Shown: one piece after another, positions 30,123-58,899 of the stretch | Layout: the number at the start of each line of letters is the position of its first letter | Position numbering within the stretch: the first letter of the stretch is position 1 | Source of the DNA: Streptococcus oralis | GTDB taxonomy: Bacteria; Bacillota; Bacilli; Lactobacillales; Streptococcaceae | Reading direction: 5' to 3' | DNA: 64,000 nucleotides | Assembly (NCBI GenBank): GCA_905370255.1 | Contig: CAJPKC010000002.1 | Coordinates: 42,829-106,828 of the forward strand | Made by a program: the position numbers and the translations under genes | The notes under the pieces: generated by a model | Told to the model about the DNA's origin: nothing | The model's input: only the letters and a program-made list of their open reading frames with translations | Databases searched by the model: none

Positions 30123-30130
30123 AAAAAAAT

Positions 30131-31615: not shown

Positions 31616-31659
31616 AAGAATATATTCCTTTCAAATAATAAATTTCTAATTAGTTAATG

Positions 31660-31687: not shown

Positions 31688-31692
31688 AAGGC

Positions 31693-31721
31693 TTGTGTTT
31701 ATAATTTTAATGTGATATAAT
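31693..31721 (+). promoter_or_regulatory. Extended -10 promoter of the double-vWA adhesin
   Basis: TTGTGT (31693-31698), 17-bp spacer ending TGA, TATAAT (31716-31721). It overlaps the opposing flotillin promoter. Confidence 0.75.
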
Positions 31722-31732
31722 GTGACTGTTAA
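31704..31732 (-). promoter_or_regulatory. Promoter of the flotillin-like gene
   Basis: On - : TTAACA (31727-31732), 17-bp spacer, TAAAAT (31704-31709). Overlaps the adhesin promoter over almost its whole length. Confidence 0.5.
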
Positions 31733-31762
31733 GAAATTTTTAAGTAAAGGACTCAATATAAT

Positions 31763-34700
31763 ATGTTAAAAGAAACATTTAGTATGCGTAAAATTGGGAA
31801 ACATTTGGTTAATGTTTCTATGTTAGGTCTTGCTGTAGCTCCTATTGCTGGTTCAGCGTTAGCGCCCGTTACTGTTTTGGCGGCTGAGCAAACTGGTCGA
31901 AAGGTTGAGAAGATTCCTTTTAAAACTGAAACTAAAGAAGATCCGACTCTTCCAAAAGGTGAAAAGAAAGTCATTCAAAAAGGTGTTGAGGGTGAAAAAG
32001 AAATTGTGACTACAACGCCAACTGAATCACAATCTAGTCGTAAACCGGTTGATGTTATTGTTCCTTATGATGTTTCAGGGTCTACTTATGGCGGTACATC
32101 TGAACTTGATCATTTGGAAGCTGTTGCTAAACAAGGTGCGGATGATACTCGTTATTTGATTATTGGTTATGATGAAGGAAACACTCCTGATGGATTTGCT
32201 TTGCGCAAGGTTATTAAAGGTGATACTGATAGTCAAACTAAAACATCTGGTGCGAGAATTTCTAAGGTTACACGATTCCTTTCTAAGCAAGAAATTTTGA
32301 CATTTGTTAAGAAAGTTCGTGAATTATTACCGGCTTCTCATCAGGATGGTTCTTGGTCTTGGGATAAGGCTATGAAAGCTTTGAATTATTACGATCCACA
32401 ATATATGGAAGCTGATGGTACGTCTAAAGATATTGGAACACCGTATGAAGAGATTTTTGAAAAAGGTCGTGATAAAAATAGAGCGGTCGGTATTTTGTGG
32501 TTTACTGATGATTGGGAAGGTTGGGAAAAATATGACACTAGCTTTTTCGATTGGGCACAAAAGAATCATGCTGATCAATTTTTAACGGTTGTTTATGGTG
32601 GAACTAATTCATTGTCATATAACACGTTGACTAAGGCTGGTCAAAAAGAAATTTTGACTACGGCTGGAAAAGATCAAACCGCTTTAGCTAAAGAAATTGC
32701 TGATAAGTTCACTAAACTTGTGACAATTACAACTCCGGGTAAACCTGTGACGACTGAAAAAGTTATTAAAGAACCCGTAAATGAAATTATTGCGATTGAT
32801 ACTAAAGAAGCAGAACCTGTGAAACCGGCAGAACCGACTAAACGGACTGAAGAAATTCCATTTAAGACTGAAACTAAAGAAGATCCAACTCTTCCAGAAG
32901 GTGAGAAGAAAGTCGTTCAAAAAGGGGAAAAGGGTCTTCGTGAGTTTACAACGACACCCGATGTTACCGGTAATGTGACAGGTAAGGTTGATTTTGATAT
33001 TAAAGCGGGAACATCTACATCAAAAGAGAGTACGCGCAAACCGGTCGATCTATTAGCGATTATTGATACTTCTAGTTCTATGGTTAATAATTTCGGTCGA
33101 GCTCTTGATTCAACATTAGCTCTTGTAAAATCTTTGAATGATGATGATCAAATTACATTTGCGCATTATGGTTTTAACAGCACCGATACTTATAACACGG
33201 GTAATCGTCCAGCGAATGCAGGTGCTATCGGAGCTAGTAATAAGTCATATCAAGGGGCTATGACGTCGCCTATGTCTAAGAAAGACGCTATTGCTTATCT
33301 TGAAAAAGCTAAACAATTCAAAGTGACAGCGGCTGGTGTTCATTTGGATGAATTCATTGCGGATATGAAAAAACAAGGTGTTAAGTTCCGTGAGGACGAA
33401 AATAAGAATTATCAAGACATCTATATGGAGCATCATAAAGCGGACAGCACCGTTTCAGTCATTCAATTCACAGATGGTTGGATGGATACAGAAGATATCG
33501 ATAAAGATTTTGCAGCATGGGCTACTAAAAACGCTAAAACATTTATGACTGTTTCGTATAAGAATGATGCAGGTGCTAATGGTGGACCAACTGATCAGTC
33601 TGTTCGTAAAATGACAGAAGCCGGTCATAAAAATATTTATGATGAGCGTAAAGAAGCAATTGATAATAATAAAATTATTAAACAATTTGAATCAACGGCT
33701 ACTGAAAAAGTTACGGTCACCAAGCAAGATGTCAATATTGATGTTACGTTAACTATTCCAAAAGATGCCAAATTGGAATCAGCTGAATTAGTCACTCCAA
33801 ACGGTCCTGTTAAAATGGATATCAAGGATAATGTGGCAGTATATTCCGGCAAGAAAGTTGCGGATGGTCATTATTCATTGACATATAAGGTATCAAGTGG
33901 TAATGGTGATGTAAAAGTTGTTGTTACTAAAGACGGTAAGGAATTGGTTTCTAAGTCTGATAAATTAACAACTACAAAAGGATCTTCCACAGATAAGATT
34001 ATTAAACAACCTGTCAATGAAATTATTCATATTGGTACTAAAGGTTCTAAATCTGACGTAACTGAAAAGAAAGTACCTTTTGAAACAATTAAGAAAGATG
34101 ATCCGACTCTTGAAGAAGGACAAGAAAAAGTTGTCCAAGAAGGTGTTGAAGGTGTGATCAAAGTCACAACTACTTATGAAACTCAAAAGGGTGAAAAAGT
34201 TAAAGGTTCTGAGAAAGTAACGGAAGAAAAAGTAACTGATAAGGTCGATAAAATTATCGCTGTCGGTACTAAAGGTTCTAAATCTGAAGTGACTGAGAAG
34301 AAAGTACCTTTCGAAACAATCTATAAACAAGATCCAACACTTAAAAAAGGTGAAGAAAAAGTTCTTCAAGAAGGTGTTGAAGGTTTGATTAAGGTTACGA
34401 CTATTTATGAAACTCAAAAAGGTAAAAAAGTAGATGGTTCTGAAAAAGTAACTGAAGAAGCAGTCACTGAAAAAGTTGATAAGATCGTGGCTCAAGGTAC
34501 AATGGAAAAACGTAAAGTTCGTTACCGTGTTGTCGATAGTAAAGGCCAAGAACTTGTCAAACAAACAGATGTCATGGAAGCTTACCAAGATGAAGAGTAC
34601 AAGGTTGAAACGCCAAAATTAGACGGTTATCGTCTTGAGCTTGCGAAAGATAGTGTACCTGCAACTGGTAAAGTTGCTGACCGTGATGTGTTGGTGACCT

Positions 34701-35086
34701 TCGTGGCTGTGAAGATCGGTAAACCTGTAACGTTGAAATTTGTTGATGAATCTGGATCTGAAATCGCTGAGAAGAAAGTATTGACTGGCGAAAACGTTGA
34801 AGTAGATACTGAGTTTACTGGTGAAGCTCCTGAAACAATCGAAAAAGATGGTGTTAAATACGCCTTTGTTGGAATCAAACAAACTGGTTCTAAAGAACGT
34901 AAGGTTTCAGGTAAAGTAACGGACCAAGAACAAGTCATCGAAGCTGTGTATGCGAAACCAAAAGAACTACCTAAGACTAGTGAACAAGCTAAACAACGCA
35001 ATACTGCGATTATCGCACTGTTGTCAGTTGTAGGGCTTGGTGGTTTAGCGACTTACTTAGGTCTTCGTAAACGTGATGAGAAATAA
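31763..35086 (+). CDS. LPKTS wall-anchored adhesin with two von Willebrand A domains
   Basis: 1107 residues. Signal peptide about 1-41 (cleavage near VLAAEQ). First vWA-like domain about 85-315 with a MIDAS-type DVSGS (103-107); second about 420-640 with DTSSS (435-439), both followed by a strand ending WFTDDW or QFTDGW. vWA domains with DxSxS bind ligands through a metal ion. G5-like modules (VPFETI..DPTL.EG..KVVQEG) come after residue 760 and also between the vWA domains, then a MucBP-like part and ELPKTSEQAKQRNTAI with hydrophobic helix and RKRDEK. Predicted cell-wall protein that binds host or bacterial surfaces. The ribosome site AAAGGA is about 12 nt from ATG 31763. Confidence 0.85.
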   Translation: MLKETFSMRKIGKHLVNVSMLGLAVAPIAGSALAPVTVLAAEQTGRKVEKIPFKTETKEDPTLPKGEKKVIQKGVEGEKEIVTTTPTESQSSRKPVDVIVPYDVSGSTYGGTSELDHLEAVAKQGADDTRYLIIGYDEGNTPDGFALRKVIKGDTDSQTKTSGARISKVTRFLSKQEILTFVKKVRELLPASHQDGSWSWDKAMKALNYYDPQYMEADGTSKDIGTPYEEIFEKGRDKNRAVGILWFTDDWEGWEKYDTSFFDWAQKNHADQFLTVVYGGTNSLSYNTLTKAGQKEILTTAGKDQTALAKEIADKFTKLVTITTPGKPVTTEKVIKEPVNEIIAIDTKEAEPVKPAEPTKRTEEIPFKTETKEDPTLPEGEKKVVQKGEKGLREFTTTPDVTGNVTGKVDFDIKAGTSTSKESTRKPVDLLAIIDTSSSMVNNFGRALDSTLALVKSLNDDDQITFAHYGFNSTDTYNTGNRPANAGAIGASNKSYQGAMTSPMSKKDAIAYLEKAKQFKVTAAGVHLDEFIADMKKQGVKFREDENKNYQDIYMEHHKADSTVSVIQFTDGWMDTEDIDKDFAAWATKNAKTFMTVSYKNDAGANGGPTDQSVRKMTEAGHKNIYDERKEAIDNNKIIKQFESTATEKVTVTKQDVNIDVTLTIPKDAKLESAELVTPNGPVKMDIKDNVAVYSGKKVADGHYSLTYKVSSGNGDVKVVVTKDGKELVSKSDKLTTTKGSSTDKIIKQPVNEIIHIGTKGSKSDVTEKKVPFETIKKDDPTLEEGQEKVVQEGVEGVIKVTTTYETQKGEKVKGSEKVTEEKVTDKVDKIIAVGTKGSKSEVTEKKVPFETIYKQDPTLKKGEEKVLQEGVEGLIKVTTIYETQKGKKVDGSEKVTEEAVTEKVDKIVAQGTMEKRKVRYRVVDSKGQELVKQTDVMEAYQDEEYKVETPKLDGYRLELAKDSVPATGKVADRDVLVTFVAVKIGKPVTLKFVDESGSEIAEKKVLTGENVEVDTEFTGEAPETIEKDGVKYAFVGIKQTGSKERKVSGKVTDQEQVIEAVYAKPKELPKTSEQAKQRNTAIIALLSVVGLGGLATYLGLRKRDEK

Positions 35087-35094
35087 TCATCTTT

Positions 35095-35122
35095 AAAAGA
35101 AGCTCGTTTGAGCTTCTTTTTT
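35095..35122 (+). terminator. Intrinsic terminator
   Basis: AAAAGAAGCTC, GTTT, GAGCTTCTTTT followed by T. An almost identical copy follows the next adhesin at 39634, in keeping with duplication of gene 3' ends. Confidence 0.85.
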
Positions 35123-35126
35123 GAAC

Positions 35127-35161
35127 AAAAAAAAAAGACGAACTCTTACGAGTTCGTCTTT
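35127..35161 (-). terminator. Terminator of the small LPKTS protein
   Basis: AAAGACGAACTC/GAGTTCGTCTTT stem with a long A-run on +, that is a T-run on - . Ends the gene at 35169-35660. Confidence 0.85.
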
Positions 35162-35168
35162 GCTGTAA

Positions 35169-35660
35169 TTATTTTACAGCTGAAGTTTTAGGCAATTGTT
35201 TTGGAGTTGTTTTGCCTTGTGGAAGATTCTTTTCAGCTTCTTTAGCTTTGTTTACATCTTCATTGATGTTTTTCTTGTCTTCCGGTTTCTTAGTGTCAGT
35301 TGGTTTGTTTCCATCTTTTTGATCGTCCAAACGTACTGATGGGTTTCCGTCAGTTCCTTTGTCAAGACCGTGTTCTTTGATGAATTTTTCTTCTTCAGAT
35401 GGAGCAAAGATTTCTTCTTTTTCTTTATCTGTCAAAGGAGATTCTTGGTTAGTATCAATGACACCGAGACCATATTTAGTAAGATCGGCTTTACCATCTT
35501 TCAATTCAGCACCTGGACGAACGTTACCGTTTTCGTCTTTAACAAGTGCAAAACCTTGATCAAAGCCTGCAAATGTGTAAGTTGCAGCAGATACTGTTGT
35601 TGCAACAGTGACAGTAGCTGCAAGAGCGGCAGCTGACGCTAAGATAGTTTTTAATTTCAT
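35169..35660 (-). CDS. Small secreted protein with truncated LPKTS signal
   Basis: 163 residues from ATG 35660, which follows AAGGTG; the GTG 12 nt upstream is less likely. Signal peptide about 1-26 (ATVTVATTVSAATYT). The mature part is Lys/Asp/Glu/Pro-rich and low complexity. It ends KQLPKTSAVK and stops: the hydrophobic helix and positive tail of a sorting signal are missing, and a terminator follows at once, so no remnant is visible in other frames. It may be a released protein, a decoy sortase substrate, or the remains of an anchored protein. Transcribed from a near-consensus promoter with an operator-like repeat, so it is probably expressed strongly under some condition. Confidence 0.75.
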   Translation of the reverse strand: MKLKTILASAAALAATVTVATTVSAATYTFAGFDQGFALVKDENGNVRPGAELKDGKADLTKYGLGVIDTNQESPLTDKEKEEIFAPSEEEKFIKEHGLDKGTDGNPSVRLDDQKDGNKPTDTKKPEDKKNINEDVNKAKEAEKNLPQGKTTPKQLPKTSAVK

Positions 35661-35699
35661 AATTAAAATCACCTTCTATTAATTATTTTTGATATATGC

Positions 35700-35728
35700 A
35701 TTATAGCACATAATAAAGAATGTGTCAA
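35700..35728 (-). promoter_or_regulatory. Near-consensus extended -10 promoter
   Basis: On - : TTGACA (35723-35728), 17-bp spacer ending TGC, TATAAT (35700-35705). The strongest promoter by sequence in this island. Confidence 0.85.
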
Positions 35729-35742
35729 CAAACGGTTGACAC
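35722..35742. promoter_or_regulatory. Operator-like inverted repeat over the -35
   Basis: GTGTCAAC (35722-35729), AAACG, GTTGACAC (35735-35742): perfect 8-bp arms covering the -35 of the small LPKTS gene. A repressor bound here would block polymerase. Confidence 0.6.
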
Positions 35743-35764
35743 TTTTTCGAAATTTATGGGATTA

Positions 35765-35793
35765 TTGCGTAAAAAAGAATCTTATGATATAAT
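35765..35793 (+). promoter_or_regulatory. Extended -10 promoter of the G5-repeat adhesin
   Basis: TTGCGT (35765-35770), 17-bp spacer ending TGA, TATAAT (35788-35793). Confidence 0.8.
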
Positions 35794-35830
35794 GTAATCG
35801 AATTAATTAAATTACTGAAGGGTGATTCAA

Positions 35831-38800
35831 ATGTTAAAAGAAACTTTTAAAATGCGCAAGATTGGAAAACATTTAGTGAATGTTTCTATGCTTAGTTTGG
35901 CGATTGCGCCTGTTGTTGTTAGTGGCGTTCAACCCGCGTTCGCTGAAGAACGTGTGGCGAATGCTGAAACGGCTTATCCAACGAAAATCGAAAACGACAT
36001 GACGCCATCGAATACACCTGATGCCAAGGGTACTTATAATAGTCAGATTAAAAGTATTGAGCTTGTGTCTCAATCGGGTAATGCGTATCGTTATAAAGTG
36101 ACATTGCATGATGGTTATTCGATTCCGGAGGGTGGTATTTTACGTTTCAATACGAATATTGCACAGGATGCATTATCATTAGATTCTAGTAATGTTTTGA
36201 ATAGTGCTGGTTCTGTTATTGGTGGATTGAATACAGTTCGTATGCGAAGCGAAGCATCGATTGACACCGAGCTTAAATTTAATGATATTCAAACGGCGTC
36301 AGAGTATAGTTCATTGTGGAAATCGTTGACATCTAAAGATTATGCGGTATTTGATGCTATTGAGTTTACGTCAAAGGATTTGTTTTCAAAAACGAATACT
36401 AATCGTAGTTTTGAATTTGTTGTTAATGTGCGATCTTATTATAAGTATGGATCGGGATCTAATGGGTATAAACCTTTGTCGTATGTGGATAAACCTGCGA
36501 GTTTTGATTTATTGTTTCCGGATCGCACGTTTAGAACGGGCGTTGGATTAGGCGATAAGTATGTAAAATCGGGTGAAGTTCGTACTGTTCTTTCTACTAA
36601 GGATATTACGACAATCGGGTCTAAACCATTTACATATGATACATACGGTGATCAACTTGTGCGATCGTCAATTGATTCTGATGCGAATAAACCACAATGG
36701 ATTGAATCTTATTTTGGTTTGCGGAATGGTTTTATTTATACACTTTCATCGCATAGCGGTCAAAATGTGCAAGAAGGGTCTAACAAGGCACTTTATTTGA
36801 AGACGGGTGATGTTATTCGGTATAAGATACCTGATGTTCTTTCGCTGAAATACAAAAAGGGTGTTTCTGTGGGTGATTCTTTATCGTTAATCGTTAAAGA
36901 AACAACGCCGTCTTCTTATGTTGAGAAGAAAAATCGATTTTCCGATACAACTGATTATAAGGTTTTTGAACGAGTGCGTGAATCAGCAAAAGAATCGAAT
37001 GTTTCTTTTAAGTTAACTAAATTAGAAGATTCGCTTATTGAAGGTGTTGTCGAGCAGGATGTGTATATTAATCCGAAAACGGAAGTCGAGGTGTATTTGC
37101 CGTTTACTGATAATAAAGCGCTGAGCGGCATTGTTGATAAAGTTGGATTAAATCGATCTATTACAAGTGCTTTGACAACGGATGATCTTAAGACGTTCAC
37201 GGAATCGTCTGATCCTGAATTCAGTAAACGTTATAATGATACGGGTGTTTCTGTTGTTCGAGATGGTTCTGTTTTGGGAAAATCTAACAATATGTCTCTT
37301 TTCTTTAGAAAAAATAGAAATGTCGCAGTGGGTGATCAAACAAATGGTACAGTAAAAGTTAAATATGTTGATGAATCGGGTGCTGAAATTCCGGGTAATC
37401 CAATTGAAACAATCGCTGAAAATAAACCGTGGTACGAGCAAGTTACAATCACTCCTAAAGAGATTGCCGGTTATAAATTTGTAAAAGCTGATAAAGATTT
37501 GAAATTGGCTGTGGGTACGGGTGAAAATATTGTAACGTTAACTTATTCTCGGAATGTCACCTATATTCCCGATCCGAAATATAATGCTGGTGAAAAAGTT
37601 CCAGATCCTGATGATCCGTCTAGAATTCATGTAGGTACGAAGCCGAAAGTTGTTGAAGAGGAAATTCCTTTTAAAGAGGAAGTTCGTGAAAATCCTAAAT
37701 TGCCGAAAGGAATTGAAAATGTAATTCAAGAAGGCGAAAAAGGTAAAAAGACAACGACAACTACTTATACTGTTGATCCGAAAACAGGTGATGTTACACC
37801 ATCTGAAAAAGTAACAACTAAAGATCCTAAGAATCGCATTATTGAACGCGGTACTGGCGAAGATAAAGATGGTGATCTGATTGTGAATTACATTCCAGAT
37901 CCTGAAAACGAACCCGGTAAACAAACGATTGTCGACGAAGGTAAAAAACCTAAATTGGATGTCACTGGAAAAGTTAAGGATCCTGGTAAACCAAAAGTAA
38001 TCAAAGTCGGTACGAAGCCGAAAGTAGTTGAAGAGGAAATTCCTTTTAAAGAGGAGGTTCGTGAAAATCCGAAATTGCCAAAAGGAACAGAAAATGTGAT
38101 TCAAGAAGGTGAAAAAGGTAAGAAAACGACGACAACTACTTATACTTTAGATGAAAAGACTGGTAAAGTCACATCATCCGAAAAAGTAACGACTAAAGAG
38201 CCTAAGAACCGCATTATTGAACGTGGTACTGGTGAAGATAAAGACGGTGATTTAATCGTGAATTATATTCCAGATCCTGAAAACGAGCCTGGTAAACAGA
38301 CTATTGTTGATGAAGGTAAGAAACCGAAACGTGATGTTACTGGAAAAGTTAAAGATCCCGGTAAGCCTAAAGTAATTAAGGTTGGTACGAAACCGAAAGT
38401 TGTTGAAGAGGACATTCCTTTTAAAGAGGAAGTTCGAGAAAATCCTAAGTTGCCTAAAGGAACGGAATTCGTAATTCAAGAAGGTGAAAAAGGTAAAAAG
38501 AAAACAACAACAACTTATACATTGGATCCGAAAACAGGTAAGGTGACGTCTGAGGATAAAGTTGAAACTAAAGATCCGAAGAATCGTATTATTGAGCGTG
38601 GTACGGGAGAAGACGTTGACGGTGAAATCGTTGTAACGTATATTCCAGATCCTGAAAATGATCCTGGTAAACAAACGGTTGTTGACGAAGGATCTAAACC
38701 TAAATTAGATGTTACGGGTAAAGTTACAGATCCAGGTAAGCCTAAGGTTATTAAGGTTGGTACGAAACCGAAAGTTGTTGAAGAGGAAATTCCTTTTAAA

Positions 38801-39625
38801 GAGGAAGTTCGTGAAAATCCTAAGTTGCCTAAAGGAACTGAAAATGTAATCCAAGAAGGTGAAAAAGGTAAAAAGACAACTACAACGACTTATACGATGG
38901 ATCCGAAGACTGGTGAAGTGAAACCAACTGAAAAAGTAACAACTAAAGATCCTAAGAATCGTATTGTTGAACGTGGTACCGGTGAAAATAAAGATGGTGA
39001 TTTGATCGTGAAATACATTCCTGATCCTGAAGAAGAGCCTGGTAAACAAACAGTTGTTGATGAAGGTAAAAAGCCTAAATTTGATGTAACTGGAAAAGAA
39101 ATTGATCCTGGTTCTCCTAAAGTAATCAAAGTAGGTACGAAGCCGAAAGTTGTTGAAGAGGAAGTGCCGTTTAAAGAGGAAGTTCGTGAAAACCCTGAAT
39201 TACCTGAAGGTGAGCGAAAAGTTGTTCAAGAAGGTCAAGCTGGTAAGAAAACAACGACTACGACATATACTTTAGACGAAAAGACAGGTAAAGTTAAAGA
39301 ATCAACTATTGAAAAAGTGGATGAGCCTAAAGTTCAAATTGTAGAAGTTGGTACTAAGAAACCTGAAGTTCCAAAAGAAGAGCCTAAAGTGGAAACGCCT
39401 AAGACTACGGAAACTCCTAAAAAAGAGGAACCTAAAGTTGAAGAACCTAAGGCTGAGCAACCGAAGACAACGGAAGAACCTAAAGCCAAAGAAACACCTA
39501 AGCAACTACCTAAGACTAGTGAACAAGCGAAACAACGTAATACTGCGATTGTTGCATTATTGTCAGTTGTAGGACTTGGTGGTTTAGCGACTTATCTAGG
39601 TCTTCGCAAACGTGATGAAAAATAA
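35831..39625 (+). CDS. LPKTS wall-anchored adhesin with five G5-type repeats
   Basis: 1264 residues from ATG 35831, 5 nt after GAAGGGTGA. Signal peptide about 1-38. Residues about 45-480 form a large N-terminal region with no recognised motif, probably the ligand-binding head. About 495-570 is MucBP-like (VKVKYVDESGAEI). Then come five modules of about 125 residues, each with a G5-like core (EEIPFKEEVRENPKLPKG, VIQEGEKGKKTTTTTYT) and a spacer (YIPDPENEPGKQ), like the G5-E stalks of staphylococcal SasG/Aap. A Pro/Glu/Lys wall-spanning stretch precedes QLPKTSEQAKQRNTAI. G5-E stalks are long rods that can self-associate with zinc in biofilms; that behaviour is not shown here. Confidence 0.85.
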   Translation: MLKETFKMRKIGKHLVNVSMLSLAIAPVVVSGVQPAFAEERVANAETAYPTKIENDMTPSNTPDAKGTYNSQIKSIELVSQSGNAYRYKVTLHDGYSIPEGGILRFNTNIAQDALSLDSSNVLNSAGSVIGGLNTVRMRSEASIDTELKFNDIQTASEYSSLWKSLTSKDYAVFDAIEFTSKDLFSKTNTNRSFEFVVNVRSYYKYGSGSNGYKPLSYVDKPASFDLLFPDRTFRTGVGLGDKYVKSGEVRTVLSTKDITTIGSKPFTYDTYGDQLVRSSIDSDANKPQWIESYFGLRNGFIYTLSSHSGQNVQEGSNKALYLKTGDVIRYKIPDVLSLKYKKGVSVGDSLSLIVKETTPSSYVEKKNRFSDTTDYKVFERVRESAKESNVSFKLTKLEDSLIEGVVEQDVYINPKTEVEVYLPFTDNKALSGIVDKVGLNRSITSALTTDDLKTFTESSDPEFSKRYNDTGVSVVRDGSVLGKSNNMSLFFRKNRNVAVGDQTNGTVKVKYVDESGAEIPGNPIETIAENKPWYEQVTITPKEIAGYKFVKADKDLKLAVGTGENIVTLTYSRNVTYIPDPKYNAGEKVPDPDDPSRIHVGTKPKVVEEEIPFKEEVRENPKLPKGIENVIQEGEKGKKTTTTTYTVDPKTGDVTPSEKVTTKDPKNRIIERGTGEDKDGDLIVNYIPDPENEPGKQTIVDEGKKPKLDVTGKVKDPGKPKVIKVGTKPKVVEEEIPFKEEVRENPKLPKGTENVIQEGEKGKKTTTTTYTLDEKTGKVTSSEKVTTKEPKNRIIERGTGEDKDGDLIVNYIPDPENEPGKQTIVDEGKKPKRDVTGKVKDPGKPKVIKVGTKPKVVEEDIPFKEEVRENPKLPKGTEFVIQEGEKGKKKTTTTYTLDPKTGKVTSEDKVETKDPKNRIIERGTGEDVDGEIVVTYIPDPENDPGKQTVVDEGSKPKLDVTGKVTDPGKPKVIKVGTKPKVVEEEIPFKEEVRENPKLPKGTENVIQEGEKGKKTTTTTYTMDPKTGEVKPTEKVTTKDPKNRIVERGTGENKDGDLIVKYIPDPEEEPGKQTVVDEGKKPKFDVTGKEIDPGSPKVIKVGTKPKVVEEEVPFKEEVRENPELPEGERKVVQEGQAGKKTTTTTYTLDEKTGKVKESTIEKVDEPKVQIVEVGTKKPEVPKEEPKVETPKTTETPKKEEPKVEEPKAEQPKTTEEPKAKETPKQLPKTSEQAKQRNTAIVALLSVVGLGGLATYLGLRKRDEK
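37634..39350 (+). repeat. Five tandem 375-bp repeats (last one shorter)
   Basis: The unit start GGTACGAA(G/A)CCGAAAGT occurs at 37634, 38009, 38384, 38759 and 39134, exactly 375 bp apart. The fixed period and high similarity indicate recent unequal recombination. Confidence 0.9.
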
Positions 39626-39633
39626 TCATCTTT

Positions 39634-39661
39634 AAAAGAAGCTCGTTTGAGCTTCTTTTTT
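39634..39661 (+). terminator. Intrinsic terminator
   Basis: Same stem as 35095-35122, followed by T. Confidence 0.85.
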
Positions 39662-39689
39662 TGCATTTTTCGATAAAGTTTGCTATAAT
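39661..39689 (+). promoter_or_regulatory. Extended -10 promoter of the RuvC-like gene
   Basis: TTGCAT (39661-39666), 17-bp spacer ending TGC, TATAAT (39684-39689). Confidence 0.75.
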
Positions 39690-39711
39690 GATGATATCGG
39701 AGGAAATTTTA

Positions 39712-40182
39712 ATGACAAGAATTCTATCAATTGATCCGTCCAGTAATCGTATTAGTACATCAACTACAGGTATTGTCTTGTTAGATAATACCAAATTGAT
39801 TAATTATTGGGTTGTACCATACGGCGTGGATAATTTTAGTGACTGGTGGCGGACTATCGGTGTGACAATTGATTATGATATTGCTATTGTAGAAAAATTC
39901 ATTGTTCGTCAAGGTAATAGTGCACGTGATAATTCCGTTGTTCAGACGGTTGAGATTATTAAGAAATTAGTACCGAATATTGTAGAGCAAGCTAATATGG
40001 GATACGGGACAGATGTTCCGGATAGTGTATTACGTGCGTGTGGTTTGTGGAAGTTCGATAAATCGCATCACCAAGATGTTCGTGCAGCTGCTCGTTTGGC
40101 GTTGTTCTATGCAATGCGCAACGATATGCAAGAAATCGTGAATGAGATTGGCGATCGTGTTTATGAATACGAATATTCGTAA
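39712..40182 (+). CDS. RuvC/RNase H-fold Holliday-junction resolvase-like protein
   Basis: 156 residues from ATG 39712, 8 nt after GGAGG; upstream in-frame codons have no ribosome site. The RuvC pattern is present: ILSIDPSSN with Asp8 near the N-terminus, a strand ending IAIVEKF with Glu61, and KSHHQDVRAAARLALFYA with His119/His120 and Asp122. Length suits the short RuvC forms of phages and plasmids. Such enzymes cut four-way or branched DNA in recombination and replication. It is a lone gene with its own promoter between two adhesin genes rich in long repeats, so it may act on recombination intermediates of the element. Confidence in the fold is good; substrate is unknown. Confidence 0.75.
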   Translation: MTRILSIDPSSNRISTSTTGIVLLDNTKLINYWVVPYGVDNFSDWWRTIGVTIDYDIAIVEKFIVRQGNSARDNSVVQTVEIIKKLVPNIVEQANMGYGTDVPDSVLRACGLWKFDKSHHQDVRAAARLALFYAMRNDMQEIVNEIGDRVYEYEYS

Positions 40183-40185
40183 TAG

Positions 40186-40214
40186 TTGATTTCGCAAAAT
40201 TTTAATGTTATAAT
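40186..40214 (+). promoter_or_regulatory. Extended -10 promoter of the 40251 adhesin
   Basis: TTGATT (40186-40191), 17-bp spacer ending TGT, TATAAT (40209-40214). Confidence 0.75.
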
Positions 40215-40250
40215 GATTTTATCAATTACATATTAAAGAAGGATTTTTAT

Positions 40251-42314
40251 ATGAAAAATAAATTGTTTAAAACAATGACGCACGTAATGCTTATTACGAC
40301 GGGTATTGGGTTCATTGCACCGTTGGCGCAACCGTTATCTGTGTTTGCTGAAGAAAAAACTGAGGTTAAATCTGAATCGTTGGATCTTACGAAAGCCATT
40401 GACGATGCAAAAGCGTTAGGCGTTTCTGTTAAAACGGGTGAAACAAAATTGTTTCAATCTCGTGAAGAGTTAGATGCTTATGTCAAAGATACTATTGCGA
40501 AATTGAAAGACGCTTCAGCTAAAGCAGTTGAACTTAAAAAAGTTCGTGGTCAAGAAGATGAAGCGTATAAAAAAGCTAAAGCCGAATACGACAAGGCTTT
40601 GGATCAATATAACAAAGATAAAGCTGAATATGATAAGAAGTTGAAATCGTACACTGAAGGTCTTGCTAAATTCCAGAAGGATCAGCAAGATTTGACGAAA
40701 CGTAATGATATTTTGTCTAGCAAAGATGGCATTGTTGTCTACGGTAAGTACGATGAAGCGAATAAAGGATCTGTTAAATACTTCGGTCAGATTGGTGTAG
40801 GATTGTCAGACTACAATAAATATCCGAACTTGTCATTTGTTAAAGACGGCGACTATATTGGCTATCACGATGATTCAGTTATTACTGATGTGAAAGTTAA
40901 GAAAGCTGTCTATAATAATTCGAATTCTGGTGATCGCACTTGGTTGAACGCGAATGATTATACTAAAGGTGATTCGTTCAAACTTACGAATGTTGCGACT
41001 ACAACTGATGGTGTTAAGCTCGACATGATTGTCACATTCAGAGAAAGCTTCAATCCGCTTTTGACAGAACCTGGAATCAATGATCAGAAATACGGAAACT
41101 TCTCGTTCCATAAGTTCGGCACAGAAGGTGCTATCAACGTTGATGCTCGTAACTCTGATAATAGTGATCTAGATTTTAAATTTGTAGATCAAAAGACGGG
41201 TAAGCCAGTAGAACTATTGACTGCTAATATTGAATCAGACTTAGATAACTATCAGTCTTCACTGTTAGAATATTCTACTATTAAATCTGCAATCACATTG
41301 ATTCCTCAAGGATCTGAATCTGAATTGCAGGGTGGTGCAGTAGTTTCGAAGTTTAATGAAGGTGTCGATAACGCTAATGCGATTCCGAAAGGTTCGTTCG
41401 TTTCAGTCGGTATCGGAGATACAATTCGTCATCAATTTAGACCGAATACGACTTTAGATCGTGCTAAACTCGCAAATCATCTTCTTACGACATGGAATCA
41501 GTCTAAAACTACTGGCGATATTGACATCTATAAGAAAGCCGGCTACACATATCAATTGTTTGGTAAATCGGCGGCTGTTAATCTGAACGTCTTTAAAGAA
41601 AAGAAACCTGTCGAACCAAAAGCACCGACGGCACCGTCTCCTGTAAAATCAAGTGGTCAAGATATTTCTATTGATGTTTTTGATGCTCGGATGGTGATTA
41701 CGAAATACATCGATATTACAACCGGAAAAGAAATTTCTAAGCAAGAAGATGGTAAACAACCTAAGAAAGATATTCCGGGATATGAATTCGTTGAGACGAA
41801 GGATGAAGGCGGAAATACAATTCACTACTACAAACCTGTAGAAAAGCCTGCCGAAAAAGTGATTACGAAACACATCGATATTACAACCGGAAAAGAAATT
41901 TCTAAACAAGAAGACGGTAAACAGCCTAAGAAAGATATTCCGGGATATGAATTCGTTGAGACGAAGGACGAAGGCGGAAACACTATTCACTACTACAAAC
42001 CTGTAGAAAAACCTGCTGAGAAAGTGATCACGAAACATATCGATATCACAACCGGAAAAGAAATTTCTAAGCAAGAAGATGGTAAACAACCTAAGAAGGA
42101 TATTCCAGGTTATGAATTCGTTGAAACGAAGGATGAAGGTGGAAACACTATTCACTACTACAAACCAGTAGAAAAGAAAGAAACACCAAAAGAACTACCT
42201 AAGACTAGTGAGCAAGCTAAACAACGTAATACTGCGATTGTCGTATTATTGTCAGTTGTAGGGCTCGGTGGTTTGGCTACTTATTTAGGTCTTCGCAAAC
42301 GTGATGAAAAATAA
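40251..42314 (+). CDS. LPKTS wall-anchored surface protein, mosaic paralog of the 27738 gene
   Basis: 687 residues. The signal peptide (KNKLFKTMTHVMLITT...FAEE) is homologous to that of the 27738 protein, as are the helical Tyr/Lys/Asp stretch at about 100-150, the three 55-residue repeats before the C-terminus, the LPKTSEQ signal and the terminator. The central domain (about 155-480) differs: it lacks the GbpC-type motifs (although SFSFHKFG-like strands suggest a beta fold) and was not recognised. So the two genes share both ends but carry different heads, as expected for adhesins diversified by recombination. Predicted wall-anchored. Confidence 0.82.
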   Translation: MKNKLFKTMTHVMLITTGIGFIAPLAQPLSVFAEEKTEVKSESLDLTKAIDDAKALGVSVKTGETKLFQSREELDAYVKDTIAKLKDASAKAVELKKVRGQEDEAYKKAKAEYDKALDQYNKDKAEYDKKLKSYTEGLAKFQKDQQDLTKRNDILSSKDGIVVYGKYDEANKGSVKYFGQIGVGLSDYNKYPNLSFVKDGDYIGYHDDSVITDVKVKKAVYNNSNSGDRTWLNANDYTKGDSFKLTNVATTTDGVKLDMIVTFRESFNPLLTEPGINDQKYGNFSFHKFGTEGAINVDARNSDNSDLDFKFVDQKTGKPVELLTANIESDLDNYQSSLLEYSTIKSAITLIPQGSESELQGGAVVSKFNEGVDNANAIPKGSFVSVGIGDTIRHQFRPNTTLDRAKLANHLLTTWNQSKTTGDIDIYKKAGYTYQLFGKSAAVNLNVFKEKKPVEPKAPTAPSPVKSSGQDISIDVFDARMVITKYIDITTGKEISKQEDGKQPKKDIPGYEFVETKDEGGNTIHYYKPVEKPAEKVITKHIDITTGKEISKQEDGKQPKKDIPGYEFVETKDEGGNTIHYYKPVEKPAEKVITKHIDITTGKEISKQEDGKQPKKDIPGYEFVETKDEGGNTIHYYKPVEKKETPKELPKTSEQAKQRNTAIVVLLSVVGLGGLATYLGLRKRDEK
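41688..42182 (+). repeat. Three tandem 165-bp repeats
   Basis: Units start at about 41688, 41853 and 42018 and encode the same 55-residue module as 29331-29990. Same orientation, about 12.4 kb apart. Confidence 0.9.
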
Positions 42315-42608: not shown

Positions 42609-42638
42609 TTGCATTTTTATTTTCAATTTTGATATAAT
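42609..42638 (+). promoter_or_regulatory. Extended -10 promoter of the RNA-polymerase-like gene
   Basis: TTGCAT (42609-42614), 18-bp spacer ending TGA, TATAAT (42633-42638). So the element's polymerase gene is itself read by host sigma-A polymerase. Confidence 0.75.
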
Positions 42639-42699: not shown

Positions 42700-45600
42700 A
42701 TGGAATATGCATTTATCCCTCAACTTGAGCGGGAATATCTTTGGGTGCGTTCTATGCAAGATGCACGTGCGAAGATGGGTCTTCAGCCTTTATCTCCTTC
42801 GAAACTTCGTCGCTTGGCGAACGAGGTTCGTGAGATTAAAGGTTCGGAATTTGGTTTAGAGTCTTATGATGCAGTTGTTCAGCAATTGTTGATTCAAGAT
42901 GAACAAATTGATTCATCTATTAATGTTGCTCAAATTTTTAATAGAGAAAATCTATTAAATGATTGGGGTGTTGCTATTAAGGAATTTCGTAAGACAGCTG
43001 CGCCGATTGAAGACGGTAATGGAAATGTTATTGACTTGACAACGATTCCAGTTACGGCTATCAATGAAGATTATGGTCAATATTTGAATGATGGTAATAT
43101 TGATAATGCTGTTTTTTATGTGAATCGTGCAGATTACGCCAAATTTATTGATGCTAAATCTAATGGTAATTCGGTTGATAATATTCTTCCACGCGCTGTT
43201 GTGAATTTGGATGATGAGTTTGTTCGGCCAACTCGTAAGTTGAGTCGTGAAGGTAAAACTAAAGTAGCTCGTCCAGATATGCCGACTGAAGAGGTCTATA
43301 CTGTTTATGGTTGGAATGGTCGTAAGTTAGAAAACGGTGAAGTAGAGCCGGGTCTTAAAGATATGATGGATACGCTCATCAGTAAAGAAGATCGTGCTAT
43401 TATGTCTCGAGTGTTTAGCGATACAGAAATTCGTTCTGACCGTGCTCAATACATTGTGAATATGTTCAATGAGCTTCGTAAAAATGGTTATGATGTTTCT
43501 GTTCAAGAACCATTATCATATCTTGGCGATGTGGCTCAATTGAATGTGCGTATTGATAACAATACAGTTCTTCGTTTGTATGACGAATCTAATCCTGAAT
43601 ATGTTGGACGCGTACAAACACCAACACGTATGTATTATTGGCAAGCGGAAGGTAAAGGTAAAGCGATTCTTGAGGAATTGAATAGTACATTTGCACCATC
43701 TGTACAAGATTCGATGCGTTTGTTGGACGCGGTTACAGGTCGTACAGTCTCTACATTGTCTCAACACCGTTATTCTCGAAACAATGGTCGTGCGGATGAC
43801 ACATTGGCTGAATTCAATAAGAATACGAATGGTGCGGCATATTCAAACTATCGCTTTACAGATATTACGCTAGATCATCCAACGGCGACTGAGGTTGTTG
43901 ATGGTGTTGAACGTCCTGTGCGATATAATGTTTATAGTGCACCTCGTGGAAATAGTGCGAAATCAGTATCATTTGAATCAAAAGATGCCGCAACCGAGTT
44001 TTTGAAACGTCAAATTGATTTGGCGACTGTTGCTTATAGGGATAGTATTAAGTTTGATGAATTGTCTGAAGCCGCTGTAGTTGTTGAGCAGGCTCGTGAG
44101 ATTTTGGATAATCGTGCTTATACGAATGATCAAAAGAAAGAAGCTCGTGCTTTGTTAGAAGAGGCAAACGCGCATGTAGAGCACTTGTTTGATAATCGTT
44201 ATAGTTTATCTCAATCTGAGTTGTTCGATGATATGGTTCAAATTCGTCATTATATGGCGCATCCTGAAGTCTACAATGCTACTCGTAAGTTTGAGTTGAC
44301 ATCTATTCCTGATGAAGATGTTAAGTTGGAATTGGAAGACTTTATTAAGGCTTCGGCTGATGGGTTCACTGATCCAGAACAGGCGCTTGAAGAATTGCAT
44401 AAAGTCTTTATTGCGACACATCTTGGTGATTTCGAAAATGGATTCAATCCTGCAATTGTAGCAGAACTTGGTGCGGATGAAAATCGTCCACGTTTGAGTT
44501 ATGCTGTTGAAGCAGCTATTAAACGTTCAGGTTATGATCAATCTAAATTGATCGGTAATGAAATGGCTGTGGATCGTTTGCGAGATCGTATGATTGAGTT
44601 TGATCCTGAAACTGCTCGTAGTCTTGCGGATGTGTTGGCTTCTGATCCAGAACAAAAGGAATATCAAACGAAAGCGATGTTGCGTGTTCAAGAACATTTG
44701 GACGTAGATAATATTTCGAACGTTGATATTCAAATTGACGATAATGGTGTTATTCAGTATTCATATGACCGTCCAAATATTTTCGGCAAAGATGGTTCGA
44801 CTCAACGAATGACTAACCAAATTGGTCAAGTATTTAACGAAGACGAATACGGTATTATTCAAACTAAATTTGTAGCGTCTGAATCATTTGGTTTCGTTCC
44901 GGGTTATGAAGCGTATTTTGTACCGGGTGAAACGCATAAGATTGTGGCTGGTTTAGAGACTGATGATGAACGTCGTGCACGTTTGCGTTTACGTTCTTAT
45001 GAGCAAGCTATTATGGCTGAAATTGATAAGAACATGGTTGAACAAATGCAGGGTGCTTATCTAGGTGGTCGTGGTGATGACCGTTATGATAACTTTGTAG
45101 ATACCATGGGCGCATCATCACTCAATAAGGTTTATCGTAGTCAGTTGCAAGGTTTCAAATTAGATCCTGATTATACGAAACGGTTCTTGGAACTTCGGTC
45201 TGAAGATGAATTGAAAGCCAATATTCGCACACTTCGTAATCGTGTTCGTTTCCCTAACCGTTATGGTGATATTTCAGGTACGAACTTTGACGATTATGTT
45301 CAACAAGATGGTTTCAACGAAGCTAAATTGGTCGGTGAAAACCTTCGTGTGGTTGATCCTAAGTGGAATAACATTTTTGATCCTTATATGTTGGGTTCTG
45401 GTAAGAACCAAGGGGTTGAACGTTACTTAGTTGATGGTGCGGTTGTTAATGCTGACGGAACGGTTAAAGCGTCTGATGGTTGGGAAAATCCATTTACGGG
45501 TAAATTGGAACGTGACCGTGTAGCAATGACAAAACAAGAATCATTCAAATATATTGATTCTATGCCGAGTGACCGTCAAATGATGGCAACCAAGCAAGCT

Positions 45601-48531
45601 CTTGTGGCACTTCAGGTAACAGAACCTGTAGGAGTTGCGTTTATGAACTTCGGTGGTTGGACATATGATGACGGTATGGTTATTTCGAAAGAATATGCTG
45701 AGAAATATCAAGTACCTGTTTATGAAGATGAAAACGGAGCAATGCGTGCGCAACGTAAAGGTGACAAGCAATCTGACTTCGGTTCAAATAAAGGGGTTGC
45801 CAATCTTATTATTGACCGTAATATGAGTGAGGAAGAAGCTCGTGCGCAAGGTATTTGGAAAGAAGTTCAATTCTTTAAAGCAAATCCTGAGTTGGATGTT
45901 GTAATGGGTCCTTATGCAACACTTTCTCGTAATAATATGTCTGTATTGAAACAAGCACGTGATACGAAAACGATTGATCTGGTCGATCCTCTTCGCGGTG
46001 AAGTTAAACCGAATGGTATTGGGTTCATGCCAATGATGATTACGGATATGACGGTTGATAAGAAATCACACGTTTATGACAAATCGGATGTTGCTAAAGG
46101 TAAAGGTCGTTCGGTTTCAACATTGTTGATGTTGAACTTGCAAGCACTTGGTGCGAAAGGCATCATCAACGAAGTTTATGGTAACAACGTAACACCGTGG
46201 ACTGACTTGCGTGAATATGCGTTGGTTCAAGGGGTTGATATTGATCATGATGGTAATTTGAAAATGGGATATCATCCGCAAGAAGGTGAAGAGCGTCTTC
46301 ATTTTAAAGTTGATCCAAATAAATCAGCCGATGATTTCATGAAAGAAATCGCGAATAATGGTGGTATTTTGAACTTGCCATTCCCGTTGATTAATAACCG
46401 ATTGAACAATATTCTTATTACTGGTGAAAACCCACGTTTACTTAAAGGTTATGATGTTCGTTCATTTACTCGTGATGAAAATGGTGAATTTGGTATTCCT
46501 GTGTTATCAGGGGCGTTACGTCGTTCTACTGAAATGATGGACGGTTCGACTGCGACTCATGATGTGACTGATCACTATATTGAAATTTATAAACGTGCCG
46601 CATCTTATATTGAAGTATCTGATAAGATTAAAGAACTTCAAGCAAATGGTGGTGATGAAGCTGAAATTGCTAAGTTAAAGAGCCAACAAACTAAGTTATG
46701 GCAAAATGCACAACGTTATTATGAACGTATTCAAACGGATACTGCGCCGAAGATTGATGGTCCAGGTGCGAATGGTAAGCATTCTTTGATTCGTGATAAG
46801 ATTACGTCTAAACGTATGAATAATTCAGCGACACTTGTTGCGTGTGCTGATCCGCGTCTTGGTGTAAATCAAATTGCGATTTCAAGAGAAACGGCTGAGA
46901 AAATGGGTCTTGAAGAAGGATCTAAAGTTCTTGGTTGGCGCGACCCTACGTGGCGCACAGGTGCTGTTCGTAGTTTTGAAATCACGATCGATGATAGTGT
47001 TACTGGTTTTGCAATGAATCCACTTATGGATAAATCGCATGATGGAGACTTTGACGGTGATGCGTATGGTTTTGTTGCATTGAAATCTGAAGAAGCTCTT
47101 AAAGAATTAGATACGTTATTGTCGCATGAAGCTAATATTTTGAACTATGGTGACGGTCAAGTTGAAATTGATGGTGAAAAGTATTATCCGTTGTTTGTGA
47201 ATGACGGCATGGACGTTGCTTCAAGCAGTCATGCTTTTAAAGAAAATGGCAAAGATGATCCAGAAGAACTTCGTAAGAAAGCAACCATTATGGCAAATGA
47301 CCCATCAGTTGATCGTAAAGAAATTCTTAATGTTTTGAATGAATATGTTCATACGGCTTTGCGCAGTGATGAAAACTTTGCAACGGATTATGTTGATTTG
47401 ACCGATAGTCAAACGGTTATGACAAGTCTTGGTAAGATTGTCAATAAGAAAGCCAAAGGTAAAGCTAGTCATTTACTTGAGTGCGCTAAATATGAGGGTG
47501 CACAATTAGTTGGCGTTCAATTTGACACAGTAAATGTTAATGAACCAATTAATTATGTATCGAGCGATACGCATCAAGCCACGAACGTTGAAGTTGTTAC
47601 TGAATTGTTGGGTGATGTCAAAGAGGGAATGTTGATTGACGTATTAAATGTTGATGCGCCTGCTATTGAAACATTTGCGACGGATAAGGATCGTTTAGCT
47701 GTTCAATATGCGACTGCTACGAAATCTGATAATACAGGTCGTCCTGGTACTATGATGCAGGATGCAACGGCTGCTTTTCGTAATGAAGCGTTACGCGAGG
47801 CTATGGAGATTTTCTATAAACCTACCCAAATGACTCTTCAAATTAAACACAATGCCGTACAAGCTTATGACATTAATAAACAATTTAGCAATAATGGTAA
47901 CATTTCGCAATTGTTTATTAAAGGTCAAAATCCAGATAATGAACGCGCGTCAAATGGTATGAGTAAAGGTGCTCGTATTTCATCTAAAGAATGGATTGCG
48001 AAAGTAGGGTCTGAGCTTAAGTTGTTAGGTTTGGATTATAATGAGGAGCATCTTCAAGTTCTCGGTAAGGCTATGTCTAGAGAGAATGGCGATATGATGA
48101 CTTTGTCTGAAGCCTTTAACGAGAAAACATCGTATTTCAATAAATTATCATTTGGTGGTAGTGTTCGTAATAATTATACCTTGTATGATGATTCTAATAC
48201 GAAAATGGGTGGTGTCGCCGCGTTGTGCCACGGTGCGGTTATGAGCGAATGTCTTTTCAGAGACGAAAACGACATCGACCGTGCGGTTGTTCCAAATGCA
48301 ATTAAAGACAAGTCTGTTATTATGGCTCGTCCGGATGTTCTTGTTCAAAAACAAAATTCATTCGAAGAAATTAAGACTCGTTTGACAGAACTTGAACAAG
48401 ATGATCAACGTAAGTTGACAATTGATCGCGAAGTTGAGTCTGAAGTTGTAGTAGAAACACCAACTGTTAAAACGGTCACAACTCCAACAGTTGAAGTTGA
48501 AGCGGAGGATGATCATGACTTTAGTTTATAG
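42700..48531 (+). CDS. Single-chain beta/beta-prime-like DNA-dependent RNA polymerase
   Basis: 1943 residues from ATG 42700 (AGAAAGTGAG upstream). Residues 1 to about 940 are unrecognised. From about 955 on the order follows the C-terminal half of bacterial beta: DRQMMATKQALVAL (beta fork), FGGWTYDDGMVIS (984-996), GDKQSDFGSNKGV (1021-1033, like GDKxxxRHGNKGV), VMGPYATLSRNNMSV (1068 on, like VLNPLGVPSRMNIGQ), then a stretch from about 1134 like the beta C-terminus that ends in bacterial beta. It continues as beta-prime: ITSKRMNNSATLV (1368 on, like GKRVDxSGRSVI), RDPTWRTGAVRSFE (1414 on, like RxPTLHRxSIQAFE) and DGDFDGDAYG (1448-1457) with the catalytic DFDGD aspartates, then KAKGKASHLLECAKYEG (bridge-helix-like). 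An acidic tail closes it. All metal-binding Asp residues are present, so activity is expected. The template and promoters are unknown. Confidence 0.88.
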   Translation: MEYAFIPQLEREYLWVRSMQDARAKMGLQPLSPSKLRRLANEVREIKGSEFGLESYDAVVQQLLIQDEQIDSSINVAQIFNRENLLNDWGVAIKEFRKTAAPIEDGNGNVIDLTTIPVTAINEDYGQYLNDGNIDNAVFYVNRADYAKFIDAKSNGNSVDNILPRAVVNLDDEFVRPTRKLSREGKTKVARPDMPTEEVYTVYGWNGRKLENGEVEPGLKDMMDTLISKEDRAIMSRVFSDTEIRSDRAQYIVNMFNELRKNGYDVSVQEPLSYLGDVAQLNVRIDNNTVLRLYDESNPEYVGRVQTPTRMYYWQAEGKGKAILEELNSTFAPSVQDSMRLLDAVTGRTVSTLSQHRYSRNNGRADDTLAEFNKNTNGAAYSNYRFTDITLDHPTATEVVDGVERPVRYNVYSAPRGNSAKSVSFESKDAATEFLKRQIDLATVAYRDSIKFDELSEAAVVVEQAREILDNRAYTNDQKKEARALLEEANAHVEHLFDNRYSLSQSELFDDMVQIRHYMAHPEVYNATRKFELTSIPDEDVKLELEDFIKASADGFTDPEQALEELHKVFIATHLGDFENGFNPAIVAELGADENRPRLSYAVEAAIKRSGYDQSKLIGNEMAVDRLRDRMIEFDPETARSLADVLASDPEQKEYQTKAMLRVQEHLDVDNISNVDIQIDDNGVIQYSYDRPNIFGKDGSTQRMTNQIGQVFNEDEYGIIQTKFVASESFGFVPGYEAYFVPGETHKIVAGLETDDERRARLRLRSYEQAIMAEIDKNMVEQMQGAYLGGRGDDRYDNFVDTMGASSLNKVYRSQLQGFKLDPDYTKRFLELRSEDELKANIRTLRNRVRFPNRYGDISGTNFDDYVQQDGFNEAKLVGENLRVVDPKWNNIFDPYMLGSGKNQGVERYLVDGAVVNADGTVKASDGWENPFTGKLERDRVAMTKQESFKYIDSMPSDRQMMATKQALVALQVTEPVGVAFMNFGGWTYDDGMVISKEYAEKYQVPVYEDENGAMRAQRKGDKQSDFGSNKGVANLIIDRNMSEEEARAQGIWKEVQFFKANPELDVVMGPYATLSRNNMSVLKQARDTKTIDLVDPLRGEVKPNGIGFMPMMITDMTVDKKSHVYDKSDVAKGKGRSVSTLLMLNLQALGAKGIINEVYGNNVTPWTDLREYALVQGVDIDHDGNLKMGYHPQEGEERLHFKVDPNKSADDFMKEIANNGGILNLPFPLINNRLNNILITGENPRLLKGYDVRSFTRDENGEFGIPVLSGALRRSTEMMDGSTATHDVTDHYIEIYKRAASYIEVSDKIKELQANGGDEAEIAKLKSQQTKLWQNAQRYYERIQTDTAPKIDGPGANGKHSLIRDKITSKRMNNSATLVACADPRLGVNQIAISRETAEKMGLEEGSKVLGWRDPTWRTGAVRSFEITIDDSVTGFAMNPLMDKSHDGDFDGDAYGFVALKSEEALKELDTLLSHEANILNYGDGQVEIDGEKYYPLFVNDGMDVASSSHAFKENGKDDPEELRKKATIMANDPSVDRKEILNVLNEYVHTALRSDENFATDYVDLTDSQTVMTSLGKIVNKKAKGKASHLLECAKYEGAQLVGVQFDTVNVNEPINYVSSDTHQATNVEVVTELLGDVKEGMLIDVLNVDAPAIETFATDKDRLAVQYATATKSDNTGRPGTMMQDATAAFRNEALREAMEIFYKPTQMTLQIKHNAVQAYDINKQFSNNGNISQLFIKGQNPDNERASNGMSKGARISSKEWIAKVGSELKLLGLDYNEEHLQVLGKAMSRENGDMMTLSEAFNEKTSYFNKLSFGGSVRNNYTLYDDSNTKMGGVAALCHGAVMSECLFRDENDIDRAVVPNAIKDKSVIMARPDVLVQKQNSFEEIKTRLTELEQDDQRKLTIDREVESEVVVETPTVKTVTTPTVEVEAEDDHDFSL

Positions 48532-58889: not shown

Positions 58890-58899
58890 ATACATCACC

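Follow-up and report, generated by a model that had tools for sequence, protein, structure and literature searches.

The window, a 64,000-nucleotide stretch of DNA from Streptococcus oralis, carries a gene whose product, judged from its sequence and predicted structure, is probably a DNA-dependent RNA polymerase (RNAP) made as a single chain and capable of catalysis, that is a member of the transfer module in conjugative elements with a MobL relaxase and a T4SS coupling protein (T4CP), and that is dedicated to the conjugation cycle. Profile matches, fold comparisons and gene neighbourhood all support the proposal of an earlier note on this DNA that a single-chain beta/beta-prime RNAP is encoded on a conjugative element.

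Fold and catalytic residues of the chain

The polymerase gene (42700..48531, on the plus strand, as are all of its parts given below) starts with ATG, has an in-frame GTG 12 nt upstream of this start, and is open for 1943 residues with no internal stop, as first reported. The motifs on which the earlier note relied also lie where it placed them: GDKQSDFGSNKGV at residues 1021-1033, SRNN at 1076-1079, then KRMNNSATLV, RDPTWRTGAVRSFE, and DFDGD at 1450-1454. Searches with the single sequence barely reach a likeness to RNAP, since the Pfam model RNA_pol_Rpb1_2 matches the window protein at E 3.6e-5 (24.5 bits, slightly below its cut-off of 25.3), the RNA polymerase beta family of PHROGs at 0.0016, and the best PDB entry by phmmer at E 0.14. 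The profile of 50 aligned family sequences matches bacterial beta-prime/gamma at E 2.8e-19, and alignment of the family with single E. coli subunits by hhalign places residues 1015-1085 on RpoB 1057-1114 (E 1.6e-6) and residues 1265-1486 on RpoC 241-496 (E 3.6e-10); these are blocks of beta followed by blocks of beta-prime along the chain, in the order originally read from the motifs. The beta-barrel model PF00562 matches relatives of the window protein (P0012, E 1.1e-6, above its cut-off). In the predicted model both subunit folds superpose, and both barrels are backed by profile and superposition. TM-scores from Foldseek were low in the matches listed (0.13-0.35), and the best viral matches were subunits of large eukaryotic DNA viruses, which are uninformative on kinship.

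The chain can be divided into several parts. Residues 1-650 (42700..44649) are specific to the family and conserved within it, most highly at 251-350 and 551-650, and had no structural match among those listed when the whole-protein model was compared with known structures. They are followed by a compact beta-like part (residues 653-1119, 44656..46056) that superposes on beta; the view that the first half of the chain resembles nothing recognisable therefore holds for residues 1-650 and fails for 653-1119. Within the beta-like part, hhalign equates K1023 and K1031 of the barrel motif GDKQSDFGSNKGV (45760..45798) with E. coli K1065 and K1073, and R1077 of SRNN (45925..45936) corresponds to E. 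coli beta R1106. A compact beta-prime-like part (residues 1182-1840, 46243..48219) contains two long helices in the secondary structure of the model (1290-1315 and 1320-1353, 46567..46758) at the site of the beta-prime clamp helices, a region over which the hhalign register spans beta-prime 241-496. It continues with the catalytic DFDGD (47047..47061), equivalent to E. coli beta-prime D460/D462/D464, and with a probable start of the bridge helix (residues 1583-1600, KAKGK..., 47446..47499) that corresponds weakly to E. coli SGARGS.. (i-E 0.063 for the second stretch in hmmsearch; hhalign E 0.011). Further along is a trigger-loop-like motif, TQMTLQIKH1717 (residues 1706-1719, 47815..47856), recognised at the level of the motif and without alignment support, whose spacing matches that of E. 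coli TQLTMRTFH936. The C-terminal tail (residues 1841-1943, 48220..48528) has the acidic-hydrophobic end DDHDFSL.

To gauge the constancy of these residues we used an alignment (A2) of 50 rows, hand-picked for spread, with the window protein, 29 of 127 proteins (P0002-P0008, P0012-P0131) and 20 of 48 loci. K1023, K1031 and the catalytic triad are invariant in all 50 rows, as are Q1710, L1713, K1716 and H1717 of the trigger-loop-like motif, in sequences whose identity to the window protein falls to 27%; the catalytic aspartates are indeed intact, as the earlier note had said. A decayed or regulatory RNAP-like protein, one that would bind nucleic acid or RNAP without catalysis, could account for a similarity to RNAP that is only distant, but it would not be expected to hold the triad, the lysines and the trigger-loop-like Q and H constant across all rows, and we regard this reading as very improbable. 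Sequence and model together indicate that the single-chain polymerase has the RNAP fold with its catalytic set intact.

Kinship and distribution of the family

Comparison with E. coli RpoB/RpoC reveals the same two folds and two barrels, the catalytic K/K and DxDxD, the R/P before the triad, the weak bridge-helix match and a trigger-loop-like TQxx(M/L)xxxH. Unlike the separate chains of multisubunit cellular RNAP (msRNAP), however, beta and beta-prime lie on one ORF, about 1190 aa serve for both subunits against 2749, and a 650-aa N-terminal region has been added. In addition, beta 830-1056, a region of 227 residues in E. coli that includes the flap, has shrunk to 8 aa in the hhalign alignment; the spacing from A1000 to G1021 has a median of 19 aa and a maximum of 100 in the 50 rows.

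Among single-chain enzymes, the crAss-like RNAP of phage phi14:2 (2180 aa), which we take from its length to be the published enzyme (gp077), is likewise one large chain of similar length. It differs in being annotated as a phage virion structural protein, whereas the window has conjugation genes, and the family profile did not match the single phi14:2 sequence by hhalign (E 0.69). By sequence, then, the window polymerase is nearer to cellular msRNAP than to the crAss-like enzyme. YonO, described in part of PMC5467207 as an enzyme of ~100 kDa that transcribes the late genes of SP-beta, and as flap-less in part of PMC7824862, shares with the window protein a single chain, both catalytic barrels, the missing flap and a mobile-element setting. 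The window protein is about twice the size (1943 aa) and is set apart by YonO's own description, in which homology to msRNAP is undetectable beyond a few barrel residues and absent for the trigger loop (PMC5467207): its homology is wider, extending over beta-prime 241-496 with superposing subunit folds. A trigger-loop-like motif, at motif level and without alignment support, is seen in 50 of 50 rows.

Also similar by description are the NCgl1702-like RNAPs, which a passage in Iyer et al. 2021 (PMC7824862) places on mobile elements and describes as having no SBHM/flap insert in the beta barrel; that passage does not link them to conjugation. The window polymerase resembles them in mobile-element context and in the lack of the insert, and the family probably includes them, because, of 14 control genomes, that of C. 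glutamicum alone has MobL. In the portions of the literature consulted, we found no report of a two-barrel RNAP in conjugative elements, the sole trace being the sentence of Iyer et al. 2021. Of two papers that name relative plasmids, PMC4585213 uses 'RNA polymerase' once (for sigB) and PMC6458302 never; the passages of PMC5539076 (on CGP3 AlpC) consulted contain nothing on an element RNAP. Flap-less RNAPs of mobile elements were already known (Iyer 2021); what is new, so far as these partial sources go, is the polymerase's tie to conjugation, which we did not find in print.

The polymerase belongs to a large family and is not peculiar to a single element. With the Gordonia member as query, a search matched 476 clusters (E <= 1e-3), and the best 120 of these 476 all had E below 1e-163 and lengths of 1,389-2,169 aa. 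Seven near relatives in databases share 45-98% identity over 92-100% of the query, and 71 invariant columns are common to sixteen aligned members (twelve in alignment A1). By tblastn the polymerase occurs in 13 of 72,556 plasmid records (five from Lactococcus, five from Staphylococcus, and Gordonia, Streptomyces and Rhodococcus), in every one of which it is annotated as 'hypothetical protein'; three entries among the clusters listed name a 'DNA-directed RNA polymerase'. An alignment scan of 84,980 species genomes yielded at least 47 loci, 33 presumably from Actinomycetota and 14 from Bacillota as assigned from organism names, and this number is a lower bound because the scan was restricted to two peptide patterns. 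Single-sequence scans of viral and genome contigs gave no match, whereas the alignment scan did find loci.

A phage origin of the polymerase was considered and rejected: none of 50,697 phage records matches it, and the sole IMG/VR contig that does (L056, 87 kb), although classed as viral, looks like a conjugative element because it carries a T4CP, MobL and a D5-like protein along with the polymerase.

Some members depart from the common architecture. The polymerase of Gordonia plasmid pGKT2 (NC_018580 74348-75721) is annotated in an N-truncated form of 1487 aa, whose upstream part is matched at 99% identity by a relative of 1945 aa. A Lachnospiraceae member (locus L043, 7835-15313, 2492 aa) has an N-terminal DUF488-N3a domain (E 7e-14) and, near its C-terminus, a weak YpsA/SLOG match below the cut-off (E 3e-4). 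Two Oscillospiraceae loci (L054 and L055) have ORFs of 2773 and 2803 aa that are far more distant and were matched only at the DFDGD region; the L054 protein matches Pfam Rpb1_2 at 3.5e-6, and both loci have the same T4CP family.

The polymerase in the transfer module

The window contains, on the plus strand, a MobL relaxase (12736..14928; PF18555 1.3e-29), a Clp-type AAA ATPase of the module (15663..17669), a 770-aa module protein with relatives in Streptomyces, Gordonia and Rhodococcus modules (17724..20036), a T4CP of the VirD4/TraG family (22143..25991; PF02534 3.3e-20) that lies upstream of the polymerase in relatives, and the module's cell-wall hydrolase with tail lysozyme and CHAP domains, also with relatives in other modules (5164..7134). 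Beyond the polymerase are an ATP-dependent DNA ligase, a D5-type primase/helicase-like protein (57165-58898) and a UvrD helicase. The left edge of the window cuts through the transfer gene cluster; window 1-25000 had no near match in the plasmid collection, and Pfam recognised no VirB4-like ATPase in 32 window proteins, 10 proteins of a Staphylococcus plasmid (L062) and 2 of a Gordonia locus (L060). No RNA gene in the window scored above Rfam thresholds, and no tRNA was found. Inocle is a giant oral streptococcal element.

The T4CP and the polymerase are separated by cargo (26014..42314) that encodes GbpC, G5/MucBP and LPXTG proteins and Band7; SSSPR-51 is also found among the window's cargo genes, and together with GbpC and the LPXTG proteins it points to a Streptococcus host. 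The LPXTG cargo genes contain tandem 165-bp and 375-bp repeats (29172-29966, 41694-42158; 37574-39424), and the anchor tails of four cargo genes are alike, which suggests that this adhesin cargo is recombining. Elsewhere, a 198-aa protein with no Pfam match (9079-9675) ends in DDDLPF, which to us resembles the tails of SSB proteins.

The same neighbourhood recurs in relatives. We examined 56 loci by phmmer, with flanks of 10-12 kb at most, and found the polymerase in 54 (not in L054 and L055). Of the 56, 49 have the window's T4CP family nearby, 39 the AAA ATPase and 38 the 770-aa protein; where found, these genes run AAA - 770 - T4CP - RNAP. The polymerase usually follows the VirD4/TraG coupling protein, from which it is separated by 16 kb of cargo in the window and by two genes in Staphylococcus plasmids. 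No T4CP was found near the polymerase in seven of the 56 loci (L002, L021, L039, L040, L045, L050, L053), several of which have short upstream flanks; in L002 the T4CP lies ~33 kb from the polymerase on the same plasmid. Four annotated plasmids have MobL, AAA, T4CP and RNAP all in one module. In the Streptomyces plasmid NZ_CP109461 an RNA polymerase alpha subunit is annotated (L061 34402-35427; 96401-97426) ~27 kb from the single-chain polymerase.

Co-occurrence is reciprocal. A T4CP search of the plasmid collection gave 25 records (E <= 1e-30); all 12 plasmids with a close T4CP (E <= 1e-90) carry the polymerase, and the remaining 13 records come from Ligilactobacillus plasmids whose VirD4 is distant (E 1e-35 to 2e-39). 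Conversely, the T4CP is present in 12 of the 13 plasmids that carry the polymerase, the exception being Lactococcus NZ_CP122373. Among 295 genomes of the family to which one Arthrobacter genome belongs, three have the polymerase and the same three the T4CP, adjacent to it with gaps of about 170-275 bp. MobL was found in every one of the 30 genomes or records examined for it, drawn from 48 loci (partial matches only in G005), within 20 kb of the polymerase in all eight genomes with both positions listed, and in one of the 14 control genomes, that of C. glutamicum. Finally, protein distances of T4CP and polymerase are strongly correlated (Mantel r 0.935, with none of 2000 permutations as high) over 34 loci, taken from 44 as those in which both proteins were long enough, with near-identical ones dropped. 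Synteny and reciprocal co-occurrence place the polymerase in the transfer module, and together with the presence of MobL and the correlation of distances they indicate that it is a component and not a passenger.

Location in this module would also suit an enzyme that makes primers or other special RNA on the single-stranded transferred DNA rather than mRNA, and primases are transferred in other conjugative systems, according to part of PMC5512222. However, the window already has the D5-type primase/helicase-like protein, and the retained clamp-like and trigger-loop-like features would be better suited to processive elongation, so that we consider such a role unlikely.

Promoters, C-terminal tails and the site of action

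The polymerase gene is preceded by a host-type promoter (42609..42638, plus strand) with a weak -35 (TTGCAT), a spacing of 18 nt and an extended -10, TGATATAAT. We propose that host RNA polymerase would make the polymerase transcript from this sigma-A-type extended -10 promoter, and that the polymerase would then transcribe the element's own DNA in the cycle of transfer and establishment. Ahead of the gene, a leftward, minus-strand ORF of ~58 aa (42350-42594) has a perfect consensus promoter of its own (TTGACA-16-TATAAT, with TG before the latter).

The flap normally anchors sigma region 4. The region that holds the flap is missing here, and promoter recognition must therefore differ: without a flap, sigma region 4 would not be held in the usual way and recognition would follow other routes. 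It may be achieved through the polymerase's own 650-aa N-terminal region, through a partner, or through region 2 of host sigma on the clamp-like helices; residues 1-650 suggest themselves most readily, with region 2 of host sigma as a further candidate.

An enzyme with these properties could act in either cell. As a resident transcriptase of the donor, it would transcribe transfer or maintenance genes in the carrier cell without being transferred itself, like YonO or a phage late RNAP. This is the simplest use of an element-borne RNAP, with YonO's transcription of SP-beta late genes as a parallel (PMC5467207, in the part consulted), and the gene does lie inside the transfer cluster, with a conserved leader of its own in actinobacteria. 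In many actinobacterial loci among L011-L052 this leader, ~50 nt upstream of the polymerase gene, surrounds TATGATCTATACATAGTTATG and has a CTAT..ATAG near-palindrome; the alignment left out ten truncated, broken, short-flanked or distant loci and kept seven Bacillota or viral loci apart. A loose pattern describes 19 of 30 leaders, and a strict one has 13 matches in 829 kb, each of them ahead of the polymerase gene, against none in 10 shuffles. The motif is not repeated elsewhere in the 829 kb, which speaks against the donor reading, as does the failure to find a second, element-specific promoter class in the window, where the comparison cannot separate host from element promoters.

The window's host-type sites bear on this reading from both sides. 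There are 18 TGNTATAAT sites, with A at N in 13 of them, and 13 plus-strand sites are at gene starts, those of the T4CP and the polymerase among them (two lie inside over-long ORF calls), which argues against the donor reading. In its favour, the MobL, 619-aa and 770-aa genes have no TGNTATAAT site, and the gaps before them (54-66 nt) are without a good host-type promoter; these genes may be read through from upstream. Overall, we give action confined to the donor clearly less than an even chance. If the host enzyme transcribes the module, the polymerase may be needed on DNA newly arriving in the recipient, with which the host enzyme is not yet engaged.

We lean slightly to this second site of action, delivery to or use in the recipient, though tentatively and at odds still below even. 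There the polymerase would be a pilot enzyme that crosses the T4SS alongside the strand bound by the relaxase and makes RNA from the incoming DNA, a conjugation counterpart of phage virion RNAPs. Its link to T4CP and relaxase looks obligate, and the Lachnospiraceae member, with its DUF488-type domain and weak YpsA/SLOG match, resembles transferred polyvalent proteins in its multidomain build. Precedents for an early-acting polymerase that travels with DNA, in the part of PMC5512222 consulted, are the transferred primases TraC1/SogL and the virion RNAP of N4; the analogy is one we propose, the folds being unrelated (Toprim and T7-type RNAP), and that part names no two-barrel RNAP in conjugative elements.

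Delivery would also fit the conserved acidic-hydrophobic tail of the polymerase, to which the MobL tail is similar in the window and in one Staphylococcus plasmid. We scored tails with a position matrix built from 100 non-redundant, non-streptococcal polymerase tails; streptococcal P0001-P0008, L021, L039, L042, L045, L047 and L053 (truncated or broken frames) and the distant L054 and L055 were left out. In the window, the tails of w_619, w_336 and MobL take the top three places, in that order, among 42 (p 0.0003 for each against 18,881 internal 8-mers), and MobL ranks first of 38 in the Staphylococcus plasmid. The match is weak in Gordonia, where MobL ranks 5th of 29, and in Rhodococcus, where it ranks 3rd of 27, and MobL of the Streptomyces plasmid fails. 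In a wider test of 29 MobL tails, 23 of them non-redundant, the match was at chance level, with 4% above the top 5% of internal segments, which counts against the delivery reading; the 'preMobL' genes, which lie before MobL, score somewhat better (20% of 15). Because MobL tails are at chance in this test, a C-terminal export signal common to polymerase and MobL is unsupported in general, and we rejected it.

The usual view is that conjugation depends on the host's RNA polymerase in donor and recipient alike. Because distant polymerase genes sit in DNA-transfer clusters across two phyla, conjugation in such elements appears to bring a transcription apparatus of its own. The locking of the polymerase to coupling protein and relaxase in both phyla suggests that host RNAP is not the sole enzyme on which one large class of elements relies. 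As a natural RNAP with one chain, no flap and a trigger-loop-like motif, the enzyme may also help to ask which RNAP parts are essential, and many proteins so far annotated as 'hypothetical' acquire a function that can be tested. By analogy with the virion enzymes it is conceivable, if on balance doubtful, that the MobL/T4CP class across Actinomycetota and Bacillota sends an obligatory compact RNAP into the recipient, where incoming DNA would be transcribed before the host enzyme acts on it. This raises the direct question of whether RNA polymerases are delivered by type IV secretion, as primases are; if so, an element RNAP at work in the recipient would be the counterpart, in conjugation, of the virion RNA polymerases of phages.
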